A stretch of 48,139 nt of DNA, from contig PLYT01000099.1 of NCBI GenBank assembly GCA_003153475.1, forward strand, positions 274-48,412, in the 5' to 3' direction. Below, in pieces: positions 18,309-48,139 of this stretch. The notes beneath the pieces were generated by a model that saw nothing but the letters and a program-made list of their open reading frames with translations, did not search any database and was not told where the DNA came from. Origin of the DNA: Betaproteobacteria bacterium (lineage in GTDB: Bacteria; Pseudomonadota; Gammaproteobacteria; Burkholderiales; Casimicrobiaceae). The translations under genes and the position numbers were made by a program. Numbering within the stretch: position 1 is the stretch's first letter; each line of letters begins with the position of its first letter.

Positions 18309-21300
18309 TCAGGCACTCAATTGCATTTCGCTCTGCGCCGTCCAGCCGCGCACCACGTCGCTGAGCTCGCGCGCTCGAATCAGATCCAGCCCGAAGCGAA
18401 TCGGCAGCGACCGCGGCAGTGTTTCGATTACTTCGCGTCCGCCCGCGCGCAGCGCCAGCCGATCCAGCAGCCGCGAGGTCACGGTTCGCCGCTGCCCGCG
18501 CAAATACGGGTCGTTGTAAAGCTTGACGATCAATTCCGTGCCCAGCCGCATCGTGTCGGCCAGCGTCATCGTGTCGCTGGCAAAGGAATCGAGCGCCTGC
18601 TTGAGCGGGAACTGGTCCGGATTCCAGACCGCAACCGATCCCGCACGCATCAACGTCTCGACGCTGGGCGTGGTAAACGAGTATCCCCACCCGGCGAGCT
18701 TGGTGCTGGCCGTCGCCAGCTCCGCGGGATCCAGGTTGCCGGCCTTCGCCCGCGCCTGCAGCGCGGCTTCGGTCCACACCCGGCGCACGCCGAATTCGGT
18801 CTTCGCCAGATCGGCAAGAATCCGATCGTCGGTCCAGAGCACGTGCCCCGGCAGCGACGCCGTGACGATACTCTCGGCGCCATGACGGCCAAAGAAACCG
18901 ATGAGCCGATCGCGACGCTCGGGTTCGATTGCGGCCAGCACCGCGCCGTCGCGCACGCGGCAGACCGACTGCAGTGCGTCGGCAAGTCCCTTCAACTGGA
19001 TGTCCGCGCGTTTGCCGTCGTTGGCGTTGCCGGTGATCGATGCCGAGAATCCCGGCGGCAGGCGCAGCAACGTGTCTTCGAATGCCAGGCGGCGCAGTTC
19101 GGCCAGCGTTGCCTGCGAAATTACGAATTGCTTCGGCCATGTCGCCAGCAGCGAGAGCCGGCCGAGCATGCACAGCGTGGCAATCGCGGTGAGATCGAGC
19201 ACCACGGCGTTAGCGCGCTCAAAGGCTCCCAGAGCCACTGCCAGCTCTTCCGCAGAGCCCGTGCAGCATTTGATAGGCGCCTCGGGCCGCTGCGCCAGGA
19301 CGAATACCGTCTGGAGATCGTTCAGGTTGATCCGCTCCGCCACGGCATGAATCGGCACCGGCTTGGTCGAGTAAGTGCGTTCGGCAAGTTTGAGCGCGTC
19401 CTCGCGTTTGCCGGTCCCGTTGCCGACGCTGTGAACATTGCCGTTCCCGTTCGCCGCGGTCAAATCGAAAAATGGCTCGAAGCCGTCCTGCATCTCGCTC
19501 CACGGAATAACTTCCGCGCGCGCCTGCGTCGCCTCAATTTCCGGCTGGCCCGGAAAGCGCGCCTGCCAGTTGAGCAGGCAGTCCATGTAGCGCCACGAGT
19601 ACTTGCTGATCATCTGCTTGACGGTGGCGTTGCGCCGGCTGAAGCGTCCCTCCGGCAATTGGAACTTATCGCCCGCCTTCTTGCCTTTCAGCGCGCGAGT
19701 CATCGGATGCTGCGGGCCGTATTCGTCGAGCGCTTCATCGGCATCGCTCGCGTCCTCGAGCACGATCCATCGCTCGGCGGTGGAATTTTCCTCGATAAAT
19801 GAAACCGCGGTCCCCGGCATCGCCGTGTCGAAGTCCGGCACGTGCGGCATCGGGCCGACCGGTCCCAATGCAGTCAGATACGCGCGATGCGAATCGACGT
19901 TGCCAGCCTGGCGGTGCAGCAGTTCGTAAGCGTAGGCGAGCGCTTCGTTGGCGCGTCCGCCGTCACGCATGAACTGCACTGCGGCGCGGCCGAGTGCCGG
20001 CGCAATCTCGCGCGGCGACGGCATCGCATTCGGATCGGCGACGACCAGGTCCACCTTCCCCAAACGCGCCGCTACGATCGAGCGACGCAGCTTCATCACG
20101 CGATCCTCGGGATGCTCCCGCAGATAGTTTTCGATCGCGGCGAGCGCTGCCTCGGGATCGTTGCGCTCGAGCTTGTCGAGATTAGCCAGCGGATCGGAGT
20201 TCTCGGCCGGTTCCTCGAGATGAAGCTGGCGGCTCAGATCGGTCACGATATCTTCGCGGCCGAGACGGGTCGCGCAATCGAACAGCCGGCGCGTGTCGGT
20301 GCCGGCGCTGCCCACCGGCGCGAGCGCCTGCCACAGCGGCAGCGCCGCGTTGTAACGTCCAAGGTCATGCAGCAGCGCCGCGAGTTTGCGCCGATTGTCG
20401 GGCGAAGTGTCGGGCGCGAGCGCGGCCAAAGCGTCGTCGGCAGACTTCGAGGCCTCGCCGAACTTGCCCTGCGCCAGGCGCAGGCTGGCGCGCAGCGTCA
20501 GCAGCGTAACTTTCGGCAGGCGCCCGTCGGCAATCGCGCTCAGCAGCGAGTCCGCCTCGTGATAACGCTCCATCGACGCCAACGCATCCACTGCGCATGC
20601 GACGGCGAACGGGAAGTCGCCGCCCGGAATCGATTCGGGACGTGCAATCGCGCGCATCAGCAGTTCGACCGCTTCCTGCAAGTCGCCCGGTTGGTCGCGC
20701 TCACGCAGCGTGACCGCCAGGTGATATTCGGTGTCGTCGCGACCGCCAACGGCGGCGGCGCGGCGCAGCACTTCGATCGCCTCGTTCAGACTGCCGCGCG
20801 AGCGCAGCACGATTCCGTACTCGCACAGGCCGTTGGCGTCCTCACGCTCCAGGCCGTGCGCCTGCTCGATATCCTTGCCGGCGCCGTCGGTATCGCGCAG
20901 CGCAATCCGCGCCTGCGCGCGGCCGATGAGCGACTGTACTTCGCCCGCTGCCGAGCCCTCGGTCTGCGCCAGCGTCAGCGCCTGCGTGAAGCATCCTTCG
21001 GCTTCGCGCACGCGGCTCTCGTCGTTGTGCGGCGGCGTTTCGGTGGCGCCGGCGCCGCCCGCTTCGAGCTCGCCGAGCAAAATCGCCTGGCCGAGCACCA
21101 GCCACGGAACGGAATTGTTCGGCAACGCTGCGCTCGCCAGGCGCGCGTAGCGCTCCGCGCGATCGAAATGCCCGTCGAGCAGCGCGCGCCGCGCCATCAC
21201 GACCGCCACTTCGGGATCGGAGGAGAGTTCGGGCGCCACACTTTCCTCGAGCGCTTTCGCATCGAGCGTTCGCGGCGCATTGTTCAGCCACAGCGCAACG

Positions 21301-22169
21301 GCGCGGCCGCTGCTCGGAAACTGCATCCGCAGTTTGTCCGCCAGCGCAAATGCGCGATCGCGCTCGCCGAGCAATTCATGCGCCAGCGCCTCATTGGTGC
21401 AGGCGTTTTCATCGTCGGCCTGCAACGACTTGGCCGCGATGAACAGCATCGCCGCCTTGCGCCGCTCGCCTTCCTTCAACCACGCCGCGCCAAGATACGA
21501 CAGCACCCGGAACTTGTGCGCGTTCGAAAGCGTGCTCCACTTCTGTTCGCGCAGTCGCAGCAGCGCGAGCCTGGCCAATTGATGCTGGCGGCTTTCAAGA
21601 AAAGCCGCGGCGGCCGAGATCTCCTCTCCCAGTGCATCGGACGGTCCCGCCGCCGCGGGCTCACAGCGCGCCTCCAGATGCACCACCGCGTCGGCGCGCG
21701 TCAGGGCCTGGCGCTTGGCGGCGGTGCCAAACTCGGTCAGAATCTGCGGATACTCGTCCAGCAGCTGCTCGATATCGTCCCAGGTCAGGACCTCGATTGC
21801 GGAAATCGTGCCGGCACGGTTCGCACGATTGAGGTCGAACAGCGAGCGCTGCAGGCCGTCGGGCTTGGAACCCGTGGTCGCGATCACGAAGCGCCCGATT
21901 GGAAGCTTCAGGCTCGCGGCCCGCTCGACGGCATCCTTGATCTCGGCGACGGACAGTTCCGACCGCGCGTCGCGCAGCTCGCACTTGACCGCGGCCAGCC
22001 GTGGCCGTCCGCTGATCTCGACGAGGTTAATCCCCTTTTCGGCGCGTTCCGGGTCGCGGTAGCGCTCGAGTTGGGGAAGCTGCCAGTGACGCCGCAGCAG
22101 CTTCAGACAGAGTCTTTCGAACTCGTCTGCACTCCTGGGCAGCGGATATCCCGGGGCGAATTTAGCCAT
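18309..22169 (-). CDS. Multidomain protein: degenerate Mrr-like domain, TPR solenoid, Gre-C-like domain, PIN nuclease
   Basis: 1286 residues from the ATG at 22167-22169; the frame is open 24 codons further to a GTG. Numbering below includes those 24. Residues 37-173 follow the type IV restriction Mrr pattern (FERLCLKLLRRHW, GINLVEI, AAVKCELRD, FVIATTGSKPDGLQ, VLTWDDIEQLL), but the usual catalytic Asp and the QxK are replaced (Asn72, Lys86/Glu88), so it is probably a non-cleaving binding module. About 205-790 is a TPR-type solenoid. About 805-875 resembles the C-terminal domain of GreA/GreB (PGTAVSFIEE, HPMTRALKGKKAGDKFQL). About 1010-1165 is a PIN domain with VVLD (Asp1016), TLAEL (Glu1048), WTDDRILADL (Asp1138/1139/1144). 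A helical tail follows. A possible TTCACA-17-TAGTAA promoter leaves only about 10 nt of leader. Divergent from abcF. The role is inferred: stress- or phage-responsive RNase that contacts RNA polymerase. Confidence 0.8.
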   Translation of the reverse strand: MAKFAPGYPLPRSADEFERLCLKLLRRHWQLPQLERYRDPERAEKGINLVEISGRPRLAAVKCELRDARSELSVAEIKDAVERAASLKLPIGRFVIATTGSKPDGLQRSLFDLNRANRAGTISAIEVLTWDDIEQLLDEYPQILTEFGTAAKRQALTRADAVVHLEARCEPAAAGPSDALGEEISAAAAFLESRQHQLARLALLRLREQKWSTLSNAHKFRVLSYLGAAWLKEGERRKAAMLFIAAKSLQADDENACTNEALAHELLGERDRAFALADKLRMQFPSSGRAVALWLNNAPRTLDAKALEESVAPELSSDPEVAVVMARRALLDGHFDRAERYARLASAALPNNSVPWLVLGQAILLGELEAGGAGATETPPHNDESRVREAEGCFTQALTLAQTEGSAAGEVQSLIGRAQARIALRDTDGAGKDIEQAHGLEREDANGLCEYGIVLRSRGSLNEAIEVLRRAAAVGGRDDTEYHLAVTLRERDQPGDLQEAVELLMRAIARPESIPGGDFPFAVACAVDALASMERYHEADSLLSAIADGRLPKVTLLTLRASLRLAQGKFGEASKSADDALAALAPDTSPDNRRKLAALLHDLGRYNAALPLWQALAPVGSAGTDTRRLFDCATRLGREDIVTDLSRQLHLEEPAENSDPLANLDKLERNDPEAALAAIENYLREHPEDRVMKLRRSIVAARLGKVDLVVADPNAMPSPREIAPALGRAAVQFMRDGGRANEALAYAYELLHRQAGNVDSHRAYLTALGPVGPMPHVPDFDTAMPGTAVSFIEENSTAERWIVLEDASDADEALDEYGPQHPMTRALKGKKAGDKFQLPEGRFSRRNATVKQMISKYSWRYMDCLLNWQARFPGQPEIEATQARAEVIPWSEMQDGFEPFFDLTAANGNGNVHSVGNGTGKREDALKLAERTYSTKPVPIHAVAERINLNDLQTVFVLAQRPEAPIKCCTGSAEELAVALGAFERANAVVLDLTAIATLCMLGRLSLLATWPKQFVISQATLAELRRLAFEDTLLRLPPGFSASITGNANDGKRADIQLKGLADALQSVCRVRDGAVLAAIEPERRDRLIGFFGRHGAESIVTASLPGHVLWTDDRILADLAKTEFGVRRVWTEAALQARAKAGNLDPAELATASTKLAGWGYSFTTPSVETLMRAGSVAVWNPDQFPLKQALDSFASDTMTLADTMRLGTELIVKLYNDPYLRGQRRTVTSRLLDRLALRAGGREVIETLPRSLPIRFGLDLIRARELSDVVRGWTAQSEMQLSA

Positions 22170-22282
22170 AGTGTAACATTTACTAACAGATTGGCGGGTT
22201 GCTGTGAAGACCCGCAACCACGGCCGCGCGCGGGGGGTCACTTTCGAGCCTCGCGCACCGCTGGTAGGATTACTTTTTTGCC

Positions 22283-34183: not shown

Positions 34184-34957
34184 TTAGCGCGACGCGGTCT
34201 TTCCGGAATCGAACTTGAAATTGAATTCGGTGGTCTTGCCAGCCGTCACTGCAACTGTGCCGACCTCCGTACCCAGAAGTTCGTGCCAAATTTTGACCCG
34301 GTACTTCCCCGGCGGGACGTTATCGATCTCATACTCCCCGTGCAGGTCTGTCACTGCGTAGTATTGATTGTCGGCGAGGTAGACGTACGCCCGCATCCAC
34401 GGATGAATTTCGCAACTGATCGCCACTGGTCCTGGCGCAGGCGCTCCGATTTCTTTCCGCACGGCTCTGCCGGGGTAAAGGCCAATGTCGACCTGGGCCG
34501 GGAGCGCCCTCGCTGTGTGTAGAATCGGGTCAGCGTTGCTGATCTCCAGTTCATCGTGGGATTGCATCACCAGCACGTGCGGGACGAAACGGCATCCCAG
34601 ATTGGTAAGCCTGAAAACGGCGTAGGCAGGCCTCACAGCCGAGGATACTTCTTTTGGCGCTCCTTCCAGGGTTACTACAGCGTTTTGCAAGCCATGCTCG
34701 GCGCCACCAACCAGGAGGCTCTCGTTTGGCACGTTCTGGCACACGTCTTTGTCCTTGATGATTTTCAGGGGCTCGAGTTTCGGCAGCGCTCCTTCAACCT
34801 GGACGACGCCCGTGATCCTGCCGCCGGCGGGGCGGATTTCGGATGAGCCTGCGGCGTACAGACTGGCAGCGGTGCTCATCAGCATGATGCAGAGGCATGC
34901 GGCGACAGTCACGACAACTTCGCCGGCCGTTCGGTTCCCTGCCTTGAGTGCACCCAT
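34184..34957 (-). CDS. Exported cupredoxin-like / carboxypeptidase-regulatory-like protein
   Basis: 257 residues from the ATG at 34955-34957, preceded by GGAGGTCC. Signal peptide (hydrophobic 13-33, cleavage near LYAAG). A beta domain holds FVPHVLVMQSHDELEISNAD and AISCEIHPWMRAYVYL, whose His, Cys and Met spacing resembles a plastocyanin-type copper site. The C-terminal part (YAVTDLHGEYEIDNVPPGKY) is a carboxypeptidase-D regulatory-like strand set. Such proteins accompany periplasmic electron-transfer operons. It is the last of five minus-strand genes running from 38307; copper binding is inferred. Confidence 0.8.
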   Translation of the reverse strand: MGALKAGNRTAGEVVVTVAACLCIMLMSTAASLYAAGSSEIRPAGGRITGVVQVEGALPKLEPLKIIKDKDVCQNVPNESLLVGGAEHGLQNAVVTLEGAPKEVSSAVRPAYAVFRLTNLGCRFVPHVLVMQSHDELEISNADPILHTARALPAQVDIGLYPGRAVRKEIGAPAPGPVAISCEIHPWMRAYVYLADNQYYAVTDLHGEYEIDNVPPGKYRVKIWHELLGTEVGTVAVTAGKTTEFNFKFDSGKTASR

Positions 34958-35003
34958 TGTGGACCTCCGGTCCAATTCGTCCGCGCCGCCATCGGCTCGG
35001 CGC

Positions 35004-35873
35004 CTACGGTTCGGCGTGGAAGATCCCCATGGCGCCGTTGTATTGATGCGCCCGATCGAGATCCATGAATCGATAGTCACCCGGCGCGCTGACTTTGAAC
35101 TCGAATACCGCCCCGGCACTGGGACCGACTCCGAGGTTGTCGATCCCGTGAAGCGGGTTGGCCGGATTGCCGCCTTGATAGACTGTGCTGAAGATGACTC
35201 CGGCAACGTGGAAGGTTGAGGTAAGGTTCGGTCCGGCGTTGACGAAGAACACTCGCACCGGCTTTCCCACTTTGATCGGAATCGGATGCTCGGCGCCGCT
35301 CTTGTTCAGTTCGCCGTTAAAAACCACGAAGTCGGGGTGCCCTTCCAGCATCTTGGTGTGATCGGGAATGATGCGTCCGTTCGGGCGGGGCGTGCCGTAA
35401 AACTCGCTCTGAACCAGCGTGATTTCCTGCGCCTCTCCGGACGGCCATCCTTCCTTCGGATCCACAATTACCGCTCCGTACATTCCGTGGCCGATGTGAT
35501 CGAGGATCGGAATCCCGTTGCAGTGATAAACGAAGACTCCCGGCACCTCAGCGCGAAACTTGTAGTTCAGCGGATTTTTCGTATCGCCGCCGAAGTACTT
35601 CTCCGGGAGTTGGGCCGCATGGATGTTAAGGCCGTGCGCATCGGGAGTGTGATTGAGTAATTCGACGCTGACCTCATCGCCCTGCCGAATCCTCAACTGC
35701 GGGCCGGGGACGGTGCCGTTGAAGGTCCAGGCGTCGTAGGTCATTCCGTCTCCAATATCGACGCGCTTCTTCTCGACCGTCACGGTGAAAGTCTTGACCG
35801 GGGCCTGGCCCAGGGCCGGCGCCGATGCCGCGGCAAGAAGAACCAACACGATGCCCAAGGCCGCCTTATTCAT
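35004..35873 (-). CDS. Two-domain copper protein, NirK-like (possible nitrite reductase)
   Basis: 289 residues, signal peptide 1-22. Two cupredoxin domains. Domain 1 has TFNGTVPGPQLRIRQGDEV, His80 and His85 (AHGLNIHAA), His117/Cys118 (YHCNG), His126 and Met131. This matches the type 1 (His-Cys-His-Met) and type 2 (His, His) copper ligands of NirK, including the His-5-Met spacing. Domain 2 has FHVAG (His222) and AHQYNGAMG (His276) for the third type 2 ligand. NirK reduces nitrite to NO in the periplasm. A different small multicopper oxidase role is possible because the protein is shorter than typical NirK. The neighbouring cytochromes could supply electrons. Confidence 0.78.
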   Translation of the reverse strand: MNKAALGIVLVLLAAASAPALGQAPVKTFTVTVEKKRVDIGDGMTYDAWTFNGTVPGPQLRIRQGDEVSVELLNHTPDAHGLNIHAAQLPEKYFGGDTKNPLNYKFRAEVPGVFVYHCNGIPILDHIGHGMYGAVIVDPKEGWPSGEAQEITLVQSEFYGTPRPNGRIIPDHTKMLEGHPDFVVFNGELNKSGAEHPIPIKVGKPVRVFFVNAGPNLTSTFHVAGVIFSTVYQGGNPANPLHGIDNLGVGPSAGAVFEFKVSAPGDYRFMDLDRAHQYNGAMGIFHAEP

Positions 35874-35930
35874 AAGCGGCGCCGCCGGAGACTGGAGTCA
35901 TGCTATTGCTTCCTCCGTTGTTCGCAGTAC

Positions 35931-36302
35931 TCACTTGGTTTTGCAAAAATGCCGGACGTAAGCGAGCAGGTTATGAATCTCGTCGTCGCTCAGCGCTTCT
36001 CCCCATGATGGCATGTCATTGCTGCGGCCGATCGACGCGCTACCGCCCTTGATCTCTTCGAAAACCTTCTCGTCGGCATCCTTCGCCATAATGTCGCAGT
36101 CGTGGAAGTTACGGGGGTGGGTGGCCAGGGTCGTTCCGTCGGGCCCGTCGCCGAACCCTGTGGTGCCGTGACATCGTGCGCAGGTGTCTTGAAACATTTG
36201 TTCGGCGGTGGGAGAGTCGGCGGCCCACGCCGTAACGGCGGTCGGACCAATCACCAGCGCCACGCCAAGTATCGTGCTCAAGAGACAGACTATCCGCCGC
36301 AT
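35931..36302 (-). CDS. Periplasmic c-type cytochrome (mono-heme)
   Basis: 123 residues. Signal peptide (hydrophobic 4-25, ending WAA), heme motif CARCH (about 41-45) and a distal axial Met in NDMPSWGEALSDDEIHNLLA. Class I cytochrome c fold, as in small electron carriers. It lies 57 nt upstream of the NirK-like gene on the same strand and is the likely electron donor to it. Confidence 0.92.
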   Translation of the reverse strand: MRRIVCLLSTILGVALVIGPTAVTAWAADSPTAEQMFQDTCARCHGTTGFGDGPDGTTLATHPRNFHDCDIMAKDADEKVFEEIKGGSASIGRSNDMPSWGEALSDDEIHNLLAYVRHFCKTK

Positions 36303-36424
36303 ACCTTCCCTATTGCCTATTGGCTCCCGTTTGCCAGCCCATGCACTTTAGCACCCGGCGATGCGGGCGGGTATAGCGACCGCGCAATTTTCTTCGTTCC
36401 CCTGCCGCACCAGAACTTCAGGGC

Positions 36425-36703
36425 CTATCTTGCCTTGAGATACTCGACCAATGCGCGGGCATTGTCGGCCGGCATGTTGCCCAGCATTCGCATGTGCATT
36501 ATTTCCTGGTCCCACTCATACGGAGCTTTTTCCCCCGGCGGCCGCGGGTTGTGACATTGATTACAATAAACTGGCCAAAGTTTCGCTCCCTTCAAGATCA
36601 GCCGCCGCTTCTCATCTTTGCTCATGGTCTGTGCCGAGACCGGCCTGCATACCGACCCGAGCGTCACGGCCGCGAGCAAAATCGCGATGAATAATTTTCT
36701 CAT
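36425..36703 (-). CDS. Small periplasmic c-type cytochrome
   Basis: 92 residues from the ATG at 36701-36703 (GAGGAG upstream). Signal peptide 1-24 (ends PVSAQ), one heme site CNQCH, axial Met in GNMPADNARALVEYLKAR. Its size and spacing suit a minimal cytochrome c. Start is 14 nt after the stop of the outer-membrane barrel gene, so the two are co-transcribed. It probably shuttles electrons between the periplasmic partners. Confidence 0.9.
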   Translation of the reverse strand: MRKLFIAILLAAVTLGSVCRPVSAQTMSKDEKRRLILKGAKLWPVYCNQCHNPRPPGEKAPYEWDQEIMHMRMLGNMPADNARALVEYLKAR

Positions 36704-36717
36704 GATGACGCTCCTCT

Positions 36718-38307
36718 TCAGAATCCGACCGTGAACTGGGTGAGGAAGGCGTGATCGTTCGGAATCGAGCCCGCGGCTGTGGACACGCCCAGGTTCGAAA
36801 CGAAAACCCCGCCCGCCCGCGGCAATTCGAGGTCGAACTCGTTCTGCCACACGATCGACGGCGCCACCCAGTAATCAAGCCCCAGGGCGACTTCGCGCGA
36901 GTGCGGCGCGAACAGCGCCGGCGAGCCGCTCAGACCGAAATCTGGAATGAGCCCGACCTGAAGACCGCCGACGCCGATGCCGGTTGCGCCCTTGATGTCT
37001 TCGAATGCGACGGCGTGCTGGTTCACTCCGGAATAGCGCACCAGGGGCTCCAATCGATGAATGTAGTTGTTGACCTCGTCGGGCAGGCCCGGCAGGTTGA
37101 TTCCGTTGAGGAAGTAACCCGCCTGCAGGTACCATCCCTGACGACTATCCTGCGGCAGGCCGCCCCCCATCTGGCGGTACGATTGCACCCACTCACCGCG
37201 CGTCTGCAGGTTCCCGTAAAAGTAGTTAAAGTCCACGCCCCACGAGTTGAACCAGTTCCCATTCATCCACTTGCCATTATAAGTTGACGCGCCAAGCTCG
37301 AGCCGCCCCAGGTGCGAGTCGATTGGGAGCGGGTAGAAGCGCACACGGGCGCCGATCGACTTGCCGTTGGTTTGGCTGGATGCGATAGCGGTTGGACCTC
37401 CGAGCGCCGCGCCCGGAACGGGCTCGCTGAAATTGGGGCCGTTTCCACCCCACACCGTGTAGTCGACGTCCTGGCCGAGCTCTCCCCACTGCAAGCCGCC
37501 GCGCAGCTGGAGCCCGATTTCGCTCGGCGGAACCACCGCCTCGACTCCGAACGGCAGCGGAGCGCTGACAAACCGGTTCACCCACATCGGACTCTGGTTT
37601 TCGTACCAGTCGCCGAAGGGTTGATCGAACAGTCCCAACACGATCGTCATGTAGTCATTGAGGGTAATCTGAAAATCCGCCAGCGGTATGTCGGTCGCGG
37701 TCCCGGTCTGGCCGAAGCTTCCCTCGAATTCGCCTTCGAACAGGATCCAGTCGGTCGGGCGGTACAGGAACATCGGCTCAAAATTGAAAAAAAACGAGTT
37801 TTGCGTCGCGTGGTGGAACCCATCCAGCGCGCCGCTTTGCTGGTCGTAGACGAAATCCAAGCCGGCGGCCCCCGTGATCTGGAAAGTGTGCGAGCCCAGG
37901 TAGCGGCCGAAGTCGGAGGCGAACTCTGGCGCCGGAATGGGTGCAGCGACCTTGGCCGTCAGCGTTTTGACCTGCACGTTAGTCTGCTCGAGTTCAAGCG
38001 TTGTCGCCTGTAATTTTTTATCGGTGTTCTCCAGCTGTTGGGTTGTGGCCTGAACCTTTGTGCCCTTTTGCTCGAGCTGCTGAACTTTTATTTCGAGCAC
38101 CTGGATTTGCTGGCGGTCGCGTTTGCGCTCCTCGCGAAATTCCCGCGCCTCGCGCGCGCGATCCTGCGCAAGCTGTTTGAGCTCGCGCTGGATCTCGCTC
38201 AGCGTCGGCGCATCTGTTGAATCCGCCGCTCGACATACTGGCGCGATGGCAAGCCCCAGGAGTATCGCCAATACCGTGAATGTCTGCCTGAATCTGGGTC
38301 GTGACAT
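36718..38307 (-). CDS. Outer-membrane beta-barrel (porin-like) with N-terminal coiled coil
   Basis: 529 residues from the ATG at 38305-38307, preceded by AAGGAG. Signal peptide (ending CRAAD), then a coiled coil of about 100 residues rich in Gln/Lys/Glu (RQQIQVLEIKVQQLEQKGTK), then alternating beta strands with aromatic girdles (FQITGAAGLDFVYDQ, WGVDFNYFYGNLQTRGEW). The last residue is Phe (FLTQFTVGF), the usual recognition end for outer-membrane barrel assembly. The coiled coil suggests a trimeric porin reaching the periplasm or cell wall. It heads the cytochrome/copper operon, as in porin-cytochrome conduits, but has no heme motif. Confidence 0.85.
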   Translation of the reverse strand: MSRPRFRQTFTVLAILLGLAIAPVCRAADSTDAPTLSEIQRELKQLAQDRAREAREFREERKRDRQQIQVLEIKVQQLEQKGTKVQATTQQLENTDKKLQATTLELEQTNVQVKTLTAKVAAPIPAPEFASDFGRYLGSHTFQITGAAGLDFVYDQQSGALDGFHHATQNSFFFNFEPMFLYRPTDWILFEGEFEGSFGQTGTATDIPLADFQITLNDYMTIVLGLFDQPFGDWYENQSPMWVNRFVSAPLPFGVEAVVPPSEIGLQLRGGLQWGELGQDVDYTVWGGNGPNFSEPVPGAALGGPTAIASSQTNGKSIGARVRFYPLPIDSHLGRLELGASTYNGKWMNGNWFNSWGVDFNYFYGNLQTRGEWVQSYRQMGGGLPQDSRQGWYLQAGYFLNGINLPGLPDEVNNYIHRLEPLVRYSGVNQHAVAFEDIKGATGIGVGGLQVGLIPDFGLSGSPALFAPHSREVALGLDYWVAPSIVWQNEFDLELPRAGGVFVSNLGVSTAAGSIPNDHAFLTQFTVGF

Positions 38308-43522: not shown

Positions 43523-44146
43523 CTAGATCAGATAGATGAACGTAAAGATCAGGATCCAAACCAAATCGACGAAGTGCCAATAGAGTCCCGCGACTTCGAC
43601 CAGCCCCGCTTTCGCCTGCGGCAGCTTGCCCATCAAGCCGCGAATCAGGAGCACGCTGTTGTACACCACGCCGCCGAAAACGTGACAGCCGTGGAATCCA
43701 GTCAAGATAAAAAACGTCGCATCGAACAGGTCGCGCTTGACCGACATCCCCTTCGCGCCGAGCAGATCGTGCCACTCATGCGCCTGCAACCCAAGGAATG
43801 CGACGCCGCCCAGCACTGTCAGCGCCATGAAGAGCCGGAACCTCGACTGGTCGCCGCGCTGGATTCCGCTCAGCGACTCGACCATCGTGACGCTCGAACA
43901 AATCAGAATGAAGGTCATGATCGCGGTGGTCGTGATGCCGAGATAATCGGAGGGCGACGGCCAGTTCGGATTGCCGATCCGAAGCGCGCCGTACGCCGCG
44001 ATACCCGCGCCAAAGGTCATCGCGTCGGCCGCCAGGAACGTCCACATGCCGAGCTTGCCCAGATTGCCGGGCGTAAGTGACGGTTCTAACTGGTCGATCA
44101 CAACCGCGCCTTGACCGTGGGTATCTACTGCAGCAGCCTCACTCAT
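43523..44146 (-). CDS. ctaE: Cytochrome c oxidase subunit III (second copy in operon)
   Basis: 207 residues from the ATG at 44144-44146 (AGAGG 9 nt upstream); an ATG three codons earlier is too close to the SD. Six to seven helices, family motifs LQAHEWHDLL, FFILTGFHGCHVFGGV and YWHFVDLVWILIFTFIYL. Subunit III helps channel O2 and stabilise subunit I. A different subunit III lies at 44504-45163, so the operon encodes two, which may correspond to fused or split subunits of alternative complexes. Confidence 0.9.
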   Translation of the reverse strand: MSEAAAVDTHGQGAVVIDQLEPSLTPGNLGKLGMWTFLAADAMTFGAGIAAYGALRIGNPNWPSPSDYLGITTTAIMTFILICSSVTMVESLSGIQRGDQSRFRLFMALTVLGGVAFLGLQAHEWHDLLGAKGMSVKRDLFDATFFILTGFHGCHVFGGVVYNSVLLIRGLMGKLPQAKAGLVEVAGLYWHFVDLVWILIFTFIYLI

Positions 44147-44220
44147 CTCGACCATCCTCTTTCAGGCAAATAGCTATAGTCAATTCTCATCGAACAGCTA
44201 TTGTCGTAACGCGGCCGGCC

Positions 44221-44503: not shown

Positions 44504-45163
44504 CTACATCAGATAAACTAGCACGAACAGCAGCGGCCAGATCGCGCAAACGAAGTACCAGTACACCGCGCACAGCTCTACGCCGCTCGCATTGCGCGCG
44601 TTGTAGCGCCCGCGCATCGCCGTCGTCGCGACGATCGCAAGCCAGATCACGCCTGCGGTCACGTGCGCGCCGTGGCACCCGATCAATAGGTAGAAGGTGC
44701 CGCCGTACGAGCCGCTCGAAAGCTTCAGTCCGTGCCCGACCAGGCGTACCCATTCGCTGCCCTGCACCAACAGGAACGTCACGCCCAGCACCAGCGTCAG
44801 CGCAAGGTAACGGCGCGTCAGCCGCTGGCGGCTCCGATGCACGGCGCGGACCGCGAGTCCCATCGTAGCCGCGCTCGACATCAGCACGAAAGTATTCACC
44901 CACGTGACCGCGATCGGAAGCCGGGGCAACGTGGGTGGCGGCCAGAACGCCGCTTGCAGACGGAAAATCAGGAACGACCCGATCAGTCCGCTGAACAGCA
45001 TCATCTCGGACGCGATCACCATCAGGATCGCGATCATGCCGTTGCTGATAAACTTCCGCTCGCCGCGATCGCTGCCCGCCGCCGCTTCCGCTCCGCCGCC
45101 GCGCCGGACCGGCGCCACGAACGGCCGGATTTTTGCCGTCGATGCTGTCACTACGGGAGCCAT
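44504..45163 (-). CDS. ctaE: Cytochrome c oxidase subunit III (first copy in operon)
   Basis: 219 residues. A longer N-terminal tail (Gly/Ala-rich, to about 37) is followed by helices with FISNGMIAILMVIASEMMLF, VQGSEWVRLVGHG, YLLIGCHGAHVTAGVIW and VYWYFVCAIWPLLFVLVYLM. This is a heme-copper oxidase subunit III but clearly a different subtype from that at 43523-44146. Start ATG lies 1 nt after the stop of the 40-residue ORF upstream, implying translational coupling. Confidence 0.9.
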   Translation of the reverse strand: MAPVVTASTAKIRPFVAPVRRGGGAEAAAGSDRGERKFISNGMIAILMVIASEMMLFSGLIGSFLIFRLQAAFWPPPTLPRLPIAVTWVNTFVLMSSAATMGLAVRAVHRSRQRLTRRYLALTLVLGVTFLLVQGSEWVRLVGHGLKLSSGSYGGTFYLLIGCHGAHVTAGVIWLAIVATTAMRGRYNARNASGVELCAVYWYFVCAIWPLLFVLVYLM

Positions 45164-45296: not shown

Positions 45297-46202
45297 TCAC
45301 ATATGATCGAGCACAAGAACCAATAGTACAATCGGCAGATACACCAGCGACGCAAGTAGTAATCGGCGCGCTGCACTGAGATTGGCCGGCTGAGTAACCA
45401 TTAAGTATCCGAACGTGAGCATTCCGGCGCCGAGCGCCGACGCAACCACCAGGTAAAAGACTCCCGCGAATCCGAGAATCGTCGGAATTATTCCGAGCGC
45501 GACCAAACCGGCGCTCGCCGCGATCACCACCGGGTTGGACGGGTTTCCGCCGCGCCGCGTATCAGATGGCAGGAGCCAGATACCCGCGCGCGCAAAGTCA
45601 GTCCGATAGAGCCGTGCGACGGCGAAGGTATGCGGCAACTGCCACAGGAACATTAATGCGAACAGCAGCGCCGGCTCCAGCGCCAGAGTGCCGCGCGCCG
45701 CAGCCCATCCCGCGACCGGCGGCAGAGCGCCGGGAATCGCGCCGACGACGTTGCACATCCAGGTATGCCGCTTCATCGGCGTGTACGCGCCAAGATAAAT
45801 CACGGTCACCGACGCGATAACAACTGCGCACAGCAAGTTCGTAGTCAGCGACAGATAAACGAGACCCCCGGCGGCAGCGGCCGCGCCAAATACCAGCGCC
45901 TCCTGCGGGCGCATCCGCATCGCCGGAAGCGGGCGATGCTGCGTGCGACGCATCAGCGCGTCGGTGTCGCGTTCGACGTATTGATTGAGCGCCAGCGTGC
46001 CGCCCGCGGCCAGCGCGGTCCCGAGAATCAGATTCATCGCGAGCGTCAGATCGAATCCCGCGCGCCCGCCCAGGTAAAAGCCGGCCAGCGTCGTAACCAG
46101 CACCATCAGGACCACGCGCGGCTTGGTCAACTCGAAATAATCAGCAACGCGGCCGTGCGGCAGCGTCAGCGAAGAGTCGGCGGTCGCTACTTTCACGTTC
46201 AC
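45297..46202 (-). CDS. ctaB: Protoheme IX farnesyltransferase (heme O synthase)
   Basis: 301 residues, UbiA-family prenyltransferase with about nine helices. The Asp-rich motif NQYVERDTDALMRRTQHRPL binds the Mg-farnesyl diphosphate, and the second is YTPMKRHTWMCNVVGAIPGA. Adds farnesyl to heme B to give heme O. The start is a GTG that overlaps the ctaA stop by 4 nt (GTGA), so the two are translationally coupled. Confidence 0.95.
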   Translation of the reverse strand: MNVKVATADSSLTLPHGRVADYFELTKPRVVLMVLVTTLAGFYLGGRAGFDLTLAMNLILGTALAAGGTLALNQYVERDTDALMRRTQHRPLPAMRMRPQEALVFGAAAAAGGLVYLSLTTNLLCAVVIASVTVIYLGAYTPMKRHTWMCNVVGAIPGALPPVAGWAAARGTLALEPALLFALMFLWQLPHTFAVARLYRTDFARAGIWLLPSDTRRGGNPSNPVVIAASAGLVALGIIPTILGFAGVFYLVVASALGAGMLTFGYLMVTQPANLSAARRLLLASLVYLPIVLLVLVLDHM

Positions 46203-47194
46203 GCGACCACCCGATTACCGACGACACCACTGACCGAGGTTCGCGCCGGCGCGGCCGCTCCAATGCGATGCGGCACGCCGAGGATTTTTCGCGCGCGAAT
46301 CGTTAGCGTGAGGCTGATCGCGAGCACCGCGGCGCCAATAGCTACATGGCTGGTGGTTGGCAATACACTTCGTCCACTCCAGATAGTCAGTGCGCCCAGA
46401 CAAATCTGAAGGACCAATAGTAAGAACATTCCGAGCGCGGGACGTCGGAGCGCGGGAGTATCGCGATGCATCCGGATAACGCGCGCGACCGTCCATAACA
46501 CCATCGCCGTGACGACCAGAGCGCCGCATCGATGGGCATAGTTAATCGCGATGTACTCATTCCAATACGGCGGCACGAGCTGTCCAAACGACAGCGGGAA
46601 GTCGGGAATCACCAAACCCGCGCTCATGTGCCGCATGAGTGCGCCAATCAATATTTGCAGATAGACGATCGCGGTCGTTGCCAGCGCCAGCGTCGCCAGC
46701 GGTATTCGCGTGGCAGGTTCATCAACCTGCGGCGTCGAGTCCCACTTCGGATTGGTGAAGATCGCGATCGATACCATCAGGCAGAACAGCGCTTGCGCCG
46801 TGGCCGCGTGCGTAACCGCGATGGCCAGCGGCAGTTCGAACAGCACCGTGATCCCGCCGAGAACTGCCTGCATGATAATCAACCCAAACGCGATGAACAC
46901 CAGTTTGCGGACCCATCGCCGCGGCTCCGCGCGCCACGCCCACGCCATCAGGACCAGCGTCAGGACCACGACGGTGCCGGCAGCCACGCGATGCCCAAAT
47001 TCGAAGCGGATGCCGCCTTCCCACGCCGGAATCAGTTTGCCGAACGCGAGCGGCCAATCCGGAACCGCGAGCGCCGACCCGGTCGATGTGACCAGCCCGC
47101 CAATAAAGATCAGAAAAAAAGTAGCGCACGCCGTCAGCACCGCGAAGCGATGCAGAGCACGCGCCTTTTCACCACTGACTGACAACTGATTCAT
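46199..47194 (-). CDS. ctaA: Heme A synthase (CtaA/COX15)
   Basis: 331 residues, about eight helices. The pairs of heme-ligating His are in EFGHRVAAGT, AVTHAATAQAL, NYAHRCGAL and TTSHVAIGAAV. Motif GGLVTSTGSALAVPDWPLAF at the first helix-loop is typical of the family. Converts heme O to heme A, so the adjacent oxidase is an aa3 type. Start ATG after GCGGGA. Gap of 18 nt from the ctaD stop. Confidence 0.95.
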   Translation of the reverse strand: MNQLSVSGEKARALHRFAVLTACATFFLIFIGGLVTSTGSALAVPDWPLAFGKLIPAWEGGIRFEFGHRVAAGTVVVLTLVLMAWAWRAEPRRWVRKLVFIAFGLIIMQAVLGGITVLFELPLAIAVTHAATAQALFCLMVSIAIFTNPKWDSTPQVDEPATRIPLATLALATTAIVYLQILIGALMRHMSAGLVIPDFPLSFGQLVPPYWNEYIAINYAHRCGALVVTAMVLWTVARVIRMHRDTPALRRPALGMFLLLVLQICLGALTIWSGRSVLPTTSHVAIGAAVLAISLTLTIRARKILGVPHRIGAAAPARTSVSGVVGNRVVA

Positions 47195-47212: not shown

Positions 47213-48139
47213 TTAGTCCGCCGCCGGTGTCGAGTGTTCGAGCAACAGCGATTGCGGCAGGTAATCCTCCGCAACTTCCGGCGAGCTGTACTCGTACGGT
47301 CCTCGGTACACGGTCGGCAACGCGCCGGGCCAGTTACCGTGCCCCGGAGGCGACGGCGCCGTCCACTCCAGGGAATTCGCGTGCCATGGATTCTCAGACG
47401 CCTTCGCACCCTTGAAGTAGCTGTAAATTATGTTGGCCCAAAAGATGAATTGTGCGGCGCCGAGCACGAATGCGCTGATCGAAATGAATATGTTGATCCC
47501 CTGCAAGGGTTTCAGGAAGTCATACTGCATCGGATTGTAGATTCGGCGCATGTGCCCGCCCATCCCCAGAATATGCATCGGGAAGAACGTGCAGTTAAAC
47601 GCGACGAAGGTGATCCAGAAATGTATTTTGCCGAGCGTCTCGTTCATCATTCGGCCAAACATTTTCGGATACCAATAGGCAATCCCCGCGAATACTCCGA
47701 ACAGGCTACCGCCGAATAGTACGTAGTGGATATGCGCAACGATGAAGTAGGTATCGTGGATGTACATATCCACCGGCGTGCACGCCATCCAGATTCCCGA
47801 CAGTCCGCCGATGACGAACATCGCGACGAACGCCAGTGCGTTCAGCATCGCAGTCGTGTAGTGGATGTTGCCCTTGTAGAGCGTGCCCAGCCAGTTGAAG
47901 GTTTTGATCGCCGACGGCACCCCGATGATCATCGTCGTGATCATGAAACTGCTGCCGAGCGCGGGATCCATTCCCGACTGGAACATGTGATGGCCCCATA
48001 CGATCCACGACAGGAACGCGATCGTGGCCATCGCGTACGCCATCGCGCGATAGCCGAAAATCGGCTTGCGCGAAAAAGTCGCAATGACGTCCGACGCGAT
48101 CCCCATCGCGGGCAGAATCATGATGTAGACCTCGGGGTG
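47213..48139 (-). CDS. ctaD: Cytochrome c oxidase subunit I, N-terminal part beyond the window
   Basis: About 308 C-terminal residues are present; the frame is open at base 48139 with HPEVYIMILPAMG. It has the CuB ligands WGHHMFQSGMDP, K-channel helix NIHYTTAMLN region, and the heme ligand segment YFIVAHIHYVLFGG (His to heme a3 and a). The active-site Tyr of the HPEVY motif is present. The C-terminal tail is Pro-rich and soluble. It reduces O2 to water and pumps protons. The promoter and the start lie to the right of the window. Confidence 0.95.
   Translation of the reverse strand, partial: HPEVYIMILPAMGIASDVIATFSRKPIFGYRAMAYAMATIAFLSWIVWGHHMFQSGMDPALGSSFMITTMIIGVPSAIKTFNWLGTLYKGNIHYTTAMLNALAFVAMFVIGGLSGIWMACTPVDMYIHDTYFIVAHIHYVLFGGSLFGVFAGIAYWYPKMFGRMMNETLGKIHFWITFVAFNCTFFPMHILGMGGHMRRIYNPMQYDFLKPLQGINIFISISAFVLGAAQFIFWANIIYSYFKGAKASENPWHANSLEWTAPSPPGHGNWPGALPTVYRGPYEYSSPEVAEDYLPQSLLLEHSTPAAD

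Follow-up and report, generated by a model that had tools for sequence, protein, structure and literature searches.

A porin, cytochrome and NirK-like gene run with a degraded type 2 copper site, probably part of an aerobic respiratory chain

In Nitrosomonas, nirK is found in the cluster ncgABC-nirK together with two small cytochromes and a copper protein, and NirK is active there; we know of no porin in that cluster. Other described systems place a porin beside electron-transfer proteins. In Geobacter, extHIJKLMNOPQS encodes the phosphate-selective O/P porin ExtI with c cytochromes, a Rieske protein and a cytochrome b, and ExtI is implicated, according to the title of the paper, in selenite and tellurite reduction (PMC5877670). 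The rus operon of Acidithiobacillus brings together a porin-cytochrome, a small cytochrome, blue copper proteins and an aa3 oxidase (PMC10654088). In MtrAB, MtoAB and PioAB, as in PCC3 and PCC4, a porin gene adjoins the gene of a multihaem cytochrome (PMC5566968). Here we describe a run of five genes in a 48,139-nucleotide stretch (the window) of contig PLYT01000099.1 from a mixed metagenomic bin. Its first four genes encode a porin, two small cytochromes (cytA and cytB) and a NirK-like copper protein. The run shares parts with the ext cluster and the rus operon and belongs to neither. It probably constitutes a periplasmic and outer-membrane electron-transfer module of an aerobic respiratory chain, with a blue-copper carrier derived from NirK. 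No description of the NirK clade or of the module was recognised in the open PMC literature, a collection that leaves out most subscription papers.

The five genes are co-directional on the minus strand, running from 38307 down to 34184. The porin (36718..38307, 529 amino acids) matches PF07396 (Porin_O_P) with 21.5 bits, just above the cut-off of 20.9. It is followed by cytA (36425..36703), a small monohaem cytochrome c with a 92-residue precursor and the single haem motif CNQCH, and by cytB (35931..36302), a monohaem class I cytochrome c with a 123-residue precursor and the motif CARCH (PF13442, E 1.7e-9). The two-domain NirK-like protein (35004..35873, 289 amino acids) comes fourth, and a secreted protein fifth. 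The intergenic gaps, in gene order, are 14, 122, 57 and 46 bases, the start of cytA lying 14 bases past the porin stop, and all five proteins have a signal-like N terminus as judged by eye. An 11-codon frame (35866-35901) with a better ribosome site overlaps the start codon of the NirK-like gene (35873), and this overlap might reflect a start shift or coupling.

The NirK-like protein resembles nitrite reductases in fold and sequence. NirKs in the PDB are its top sequence matches, with E about 1e-47, and its predicted structure (predicted local distance difference test score, pLDDT, 72.8) matches N. europaea NirK (4kns) with a Z score of 28.6 and a root-mean-square deviation of 2.3 over 251 residues, Geobacillus NirKs being next. 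Since 4kns has 285 residues, of which 251 are aligned, the length of the protein is unremarkable, not shorter than usual as a reading made from the letters of the window (the sequence-only reading) had suggested. The match to TIGR02376 spans residues 26-287 and reaches 156.7 bits, about half of the cut-off of 296.3. Two-domain laccases carry paired HxH motifs for the trinuclear copper site; at those places the window protein has HGLNIH and YHC. It lies inside the tested NirKs in a tree that contained no laccase row, so that the grouping with laccase-type proteins, which had been set as a possible refutation, was not found; nor was there any match to PF00394 (Cu-oxidase) in the bin of the window at E<=0.001.

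A published checklist for NirK comprises seven copper ligands plus one Asp and one His (PMC4770552). The copper-site motifs of the window protein align without gaps to those of NirKs, and all four type 1 ligands (His95, Cys136, His145 and Met150) are present as H80 (35636-35634), C118 (35522-35520), H126 (35498-35496) and M131 (35483-35481). At the type 2 site, His100 and His135 are retained as H85 and H117, both located between the type 1 ligands (within 35481..35636), and His255 is retained as H222. However, the third type 2 ligand, His306, is replaced by Leu272 (35058..35060), and the catalytic Asp98 by Asn83 (35625..35627). The sequence-only reading had stated that the protein keeps its type 1 and type 2 ligands, which thus holds for the former and fails for the latter at His306. 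Thus, the protein shares with the N. europaea and Geobacillus type of NirK (4kns and 3wia) the two-cupredoxin-domain fold, the type 1 site, His100, His135, His255 and the length, but differs in both of these replaced residues and in its low TIGR02376 score. It is probably not a nitrite reductase. A new histidine, His276 (35048-35046), lies four residues beyond Leu272; because residues 273-280 of the model have pLDDT <50, the model leaves its geometry undefined.

These replacements are part of a broader pattern. The window protein belongs to a clade of 17 sequences with tree support of 99/95, in a tree whose outgroup rows do not fall on one side of a branch, in which L087, L004 and L095 are long, and whose forks inside the clade are weakly supported. 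A fragment (L088) and two laccase-like proteins (L085a and L086a) were omitted from the tree and from the residue counts. In the clade, the type 1 ligands are conserved throughout (17/17), whereas Asp98 is found in 5 members, His100 in 6, His255 in 13 and His306 in 4; His135, which adjoins the type 1 Cys, is present in all 17. In the 21 other NirKs, Asp98, His100, His255 and His306 are invariant and His135 is present in 19; of their type 1 ligands, His95, Cys136 and His145 are found in all and Met150 in 20. The columns of Asp98, His100 and His306 rank among the least conserved 3-16% of clade columns, and the replacements differ from one member to another: Met, Tyr, Gln or Gly at position 100, and Ser, Leu, Gly, Thr, Gln or Asp at 306. 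When the 13 proteins that have lost type 2 ligands were compared with 23 that have kept them (L072 and L080 being additionally omitted), the strongest differences were found at His306 and at the position two after His255, where the former group has small or polar residues instead of Ile, Val or Met.

The loss appears as a graded series. Three type 2 His are kept in 4 of the 14 module proteins introduced below (L075, L078, L079 and L098), and at least one is missing in the other 10; the full catalytic set is found only in L078 and L098. In L075 and L079, Asp98 alone is replaced; the window protein has lost one ligand and Asp98, and in L071 only His135 is left. A parsimony count gives two changes for the loss of type 2 His, although such a count permits regain. 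Since L078, which is a module of the clade, the distant L098 and the neighbouring-branch NirKs L081 and L083, which adjoin norCB and have all sites intact, keep the full catalytic set, the ancestral protein in the module probably functioned as a nitrite reductase. The ratio of nonsynonymous to synonymous substitution rates (dN/dS) was 0.140, 0.127, 0.128 and 0.042 in four pairs of NirK-like genes; such values (0.04-0.14) point to purifying selection and to genes that are not decaying. An origin of the window gene as a pseudogene or by misassembly, which the mixed state of its bin might suggest, is therefore highly improbable, as an 83%-identical copy (L021) in genome G100 carries the same two substitutions with a dN/dS of 0.14 for the pair, and the module recurs in 14 genomes.

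Two further sets of relatives may be noted here. The NirK relatives at L072 (7071-7967) and L080 (7663-8577) have no module, have Gln in place of His135, and are flanked by a luciferase-like monooxygenase gene on one side and a universal-stress-like gene on the other (names assigned by eye). Loci L085 (5541-8594) and L086 (5205-8230) each encode a type-2-intact NirK in a single run with a laccase-like copper protein and a cytB-like cytochrome.

The distribution of the run has to be considered together with the identity of its host. The bin (G000), with a listed contamination of 2.8%, contains two Obg genes of different lineages, on contigs C2 and C17, and was therefore judged to be mixed; it is also incomplete, as are metagenome-assembled genomes in this comparison. 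Because no 16S match was obtained from the bin, the lineage was judged from Obg. One Obg is 72% identical to the query from the genome of L023, with a score near those of G100, G145, G150 and G151; the other is 52% identical and resembles those of the genus-mates G001, G002, G004 and G006. The NirK-like gene of the window is 80-83% identical to that of G100 (record 'Deltaproteobacteria bacterium palsa_1115'). On the basis of this identity and the Obg evidence, the contig was assigned to the class of G100. That class may be Binatia (Desulfobacterota_B), a conjecture for which PMC8262859 provided no connection and no taxonomy entry of that name turned up.

When species genomes were scanned, seven relatives emerged, and the order porin-cytA-cytB-NirK is conserved in five of them. 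In the class of G100, NirK-like matches were found in 39 of 148 genomes (E<=1e-25); 32 of these regions were examined in addition to the window, and 14 genomes, counting that of the window, have all four genes in this order. This recurrence argues against a chance grouping, although the 14 modules represent fewer independent lineages because G101-G104 share flanking genes. Across the module loci, identity falls as low as 31% for the porin and 53% for NirK, with one NirK at 35% (L098). Since L098, with its full catalytic set, comes from a distant NirK branch, the porin-cytochrome trio is found beside two NirK lineages.

The porin family is also present in 39 of the 148 class genomes (E<=1e-15). 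In the wider phylum it matched 7 of 395 genomes, all seven already in the class set, with up to three first-look candidates scored per genome among the matches shown. We examined 20 porin loci that have no NirK; others, mostly weaker or fragmentary (e.g. G117, G120, G127, G154, G185, G206, G233 and G243), were left out. In every locus read (34/34), cytA follows the porin. The order porin-cytA-cytB is found in 15 of the 20 NirK-less loci, cytB lies ahead of the porin in one, and the remaining four have porin-cytA with a plastocyanin-like protein (PF00127) and no cytB match. Eight NirK-less loci extend into a GltD-like Fe-S flavoprotein, a Rieske protein, a cytochrome b and a further cytochrome c; in L129, the GltD-like gene is truncated by the end of the contig and the operon is incomplete. 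Locus L067 (4384-10408) contains two tandem porin-cytA-cytB cores, one followed by a NirK-like gene and the other by the Rieske/cytochrome b operon.

Oxidase genes are found in the same setting. L135 has the order porin-cytA-cytB-coxB-coxA-coxC-ctaG-Rieske-cytb, with a haem domain in coxB, and L148 has coxB-coxA-coxC-plastocyanin-porin-cytA; coxA and coxB lie on the opposite strand past the operon of L137, and a piece of coxC lies at the edge of L140. In the window, aa3-type oxidase genes share the strand of the porin and begin 5.2 kb upstream of it. By Pfam they are two COX3 genes (43523-44155 and 44504-45163), ctaB/UbiA (45297-46202), ctaA/COX15 (46199-47194) and a partial COX1 (47213-48121, also TIGR02891) that is cut by the end of contig C9 at 48412, all on the minus strand. 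With the porin-cytA core repeatedly accompanied by Rieske/cytochrome b or aa3-oxidase genes, the setting is probably one of aerobic respiration; together with the conserved gene order, this linkage supports the respiratory module proposed in the sequence-only reading.

In the mechanism that we propose, cytA, cytB and the NirK-derived protein would act as electron carriers, the last by taking an electron onto its type 1 copper and passing it on without reducing nitrite. A likely source would be a Rieske/cytochrome b complex and the likely sink the aa3 oxidase, while the porin would pass a small or anionic solute over the outer membrane. The NirK derivative is read as a carrier because a plastocyanin-like gene replaces cytB in some loci, and the plastocyanin-like proteins may perform the same relay where NirK is missing. 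This role is suggested by sequence and gene context.

Several observations weigh against this proposal. The window protein retains two of three type 2 His. Of the 17 clade members, 14 have a His at 306+4, as do 12 of the 13 that have lost type 2 ligands, and position 100 carries a possible ligand (His, Met, Tyr or Gln) in 16 of 17; with the two type 2 His and the +4 His present, a remodelled metal site is conceivable. Two type-2-lost proteins (L073 and L077) have no adjoining module, and a third (L074) has cytB only. The bc and oxidase genes beside the core are found mainly in NirK-less loci: in the stretch read for each of the 14 NirK modules, they occur only in L067, with the second core, and in the window, 5.2 kb off. 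Moreover, G146, the genome of a type-2-lost module, carries NorB (partial).

The first of these points would fit a NirK-like protein that is still an enzyme, with a type 2 pocket rebuilt for another small substrate or another metal. Candidate ligands would be the invariant His135, the new +4 His and the variable residue at position 100. However, a conserved new active site would not be expected to vary as this one does, with Asp, Asn, Glu, Tyr or Phe at the Asp98 position and Ser, Leu, Gly, Thr, Gln, Asp or His at 306, and in L071 positions 100, 306 and +4 are occupied by Gly, Ser and Ala, respectively. We regard a rebuilt pocket as unlikely.

Equally doubtful is a path like that of rus, in which electrons from an outer substrate (a metal or an organic compound) would enter by a cytA bound to the porin and reach the aa3 oxidase by way of cytB and the NirK-derived blue copper protein. 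In an uncultured lineage, such a path might combine an unfused porin and a monohaem cytochrome with a decayed NirK as a rusticyanin-like relay and aa3 as the sink, the plastocyanin-like protein and the NirK derivative being interchangeable. The gene order of L135, the ctaA and ctaB genes that accompany the oxidase of the window, and the invariable position of cytA after the porin are consistent with this. The likeness to rus extends to an outer-membrane porin part, a small cytochrome, a blue copper protein, an aa3 oxidase and ctaA/ctaB genes (PMC10654088), whereas Cyc2 fuses porin and cytochrome, which here are encoded by separate genes, and the copper protein here derives from NirK or is plastocyanin-like. 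Against such a path, no CxxCH was found in the 16 porin open reading frames checked, so that no haem domain fused as in Cyc2 is seen, and exactly one CxxCH occurs in each module cytochrome (15 cytA and 16 cytB frames aligned). There is also no sign of cytA entering the barrel, and the AlphaFold porin model failed (seven sequences, pLDDT 33.8).

The porin itself has a helical or coiled-coil stretch (about residues 36-121, helical in this low-confidence model) followed by a barrel part. Porin_O_P matches 11 of 29 aligned family members, and the profile of all 29, searched against the PDB, matched mostly coiled coils, OprP (2o4v) being found at E 0.054. None of the 29 porins, a family for which the structure model failed, has an MtrB/PioB-family Pfam match. 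In MtrAB, MtoAB, PioAB, PCC3 and PCC4, the porin gene likewise adjoins a cytochrome gene, but the cytochromes there are multihaem (PMC5566968) and none in the module is. The multihaem partners of an Mtr, Mto or Pio conduit, or of Ext (ExtKL, ExtM, ExtN and ExtS), are thus missing, and the conduit that the sequence-only reading had offered for the run stays hypothetical. The ext cluster resembles the module in its O/P-family porin with cytochromes, Rieske protein and cytochrome b, and the cytochrome b of the NirK-less operon L142 scores 250 bits against NCBIfam ExtP, with a cut-off of 290. However, the Ext cytochromes are multihaem, and the available part of the ext paper mentions no NirK or cupredoxin (PMC5877670). 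No Ext model was among the listed NCBIfam matches of the window porin, the existence of an NCBIfam model for ExtI being unchecked.

A working nitrite reductase with its own electron donors and nitrite channel, as the nitrite reduction named among the first options would imply, is improbable for the window. The NirK fold and sequence, the module members with the full catalytic set (L078 and L098), NorB in G145 and G146, and a qNor near L079 agree with it, whereas the replacement of His306 and Asp98 in the window protein and the loss of at least one type 2 His in 10 of 14 module proteins speak against it. The distribution of nitric oxide reductases points weakly in the latter direction. Among 20 genomes searched for NorB, close matches turned up in G105, G126, G130, G145 and G146 (partial), and distant NorB-type matches (26-28%) in G126, G150 and G151. 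The match in G151 is a qNor, 2.2 kb from the module L079 and on the opposite strand. Among the 14 module genomes, NorB of at least 70% identity is found in just two, G145 (the genome of L078) and G146; at E<=1e-15, there was none in the incomplete and mixed bin of the window or in its nearest relative, G100. NorB or qNor is found in two of the four module genomes whose protein keeps all three type 2 His and in one of the other ten, a weak association with the state of the type 2 site among incomplete genomes.

The fifth gene of the run (34184..34957, minus strand) encodes a secreted protein of 257 amino acids with carboxypeptidase-regulatory/fn3 domains in Pfam (PF13620/PF14686, E ~1e-8). No Pfam copper domain was found in it, so that only part of the original inventory of a porin, two cytochromes and two copper proteins holds: five minus-strand genes are present and the first four are colinear in 14 genomes. 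By eye, one His and a Cys-x-x-His-x-x-Met could form a type 1 site, and a cupredoxin-like part is possible. With tblastn, no match to this gene was found next to the related modules. Elsewhere in the window, a frame of 1310 amino acids (18309-22241) contains TPR and PIN-TPR-GreABC (PF20698) domains.

The clade thus provides a family, nirK-like by weak homology, in which the enzymatic site has been substituted in varied ways while the type 1 copper site and strong selection persist. It offers a testable case of a copper enzyme decaying into an electron carrier, with graded natural steps. It is also a caution for nirK surveys, in which such homologues could be counted as nirK. For the organism itself, the run points to a modular porin-cytochrome-copper respiratory system in a soil-type bacterium.

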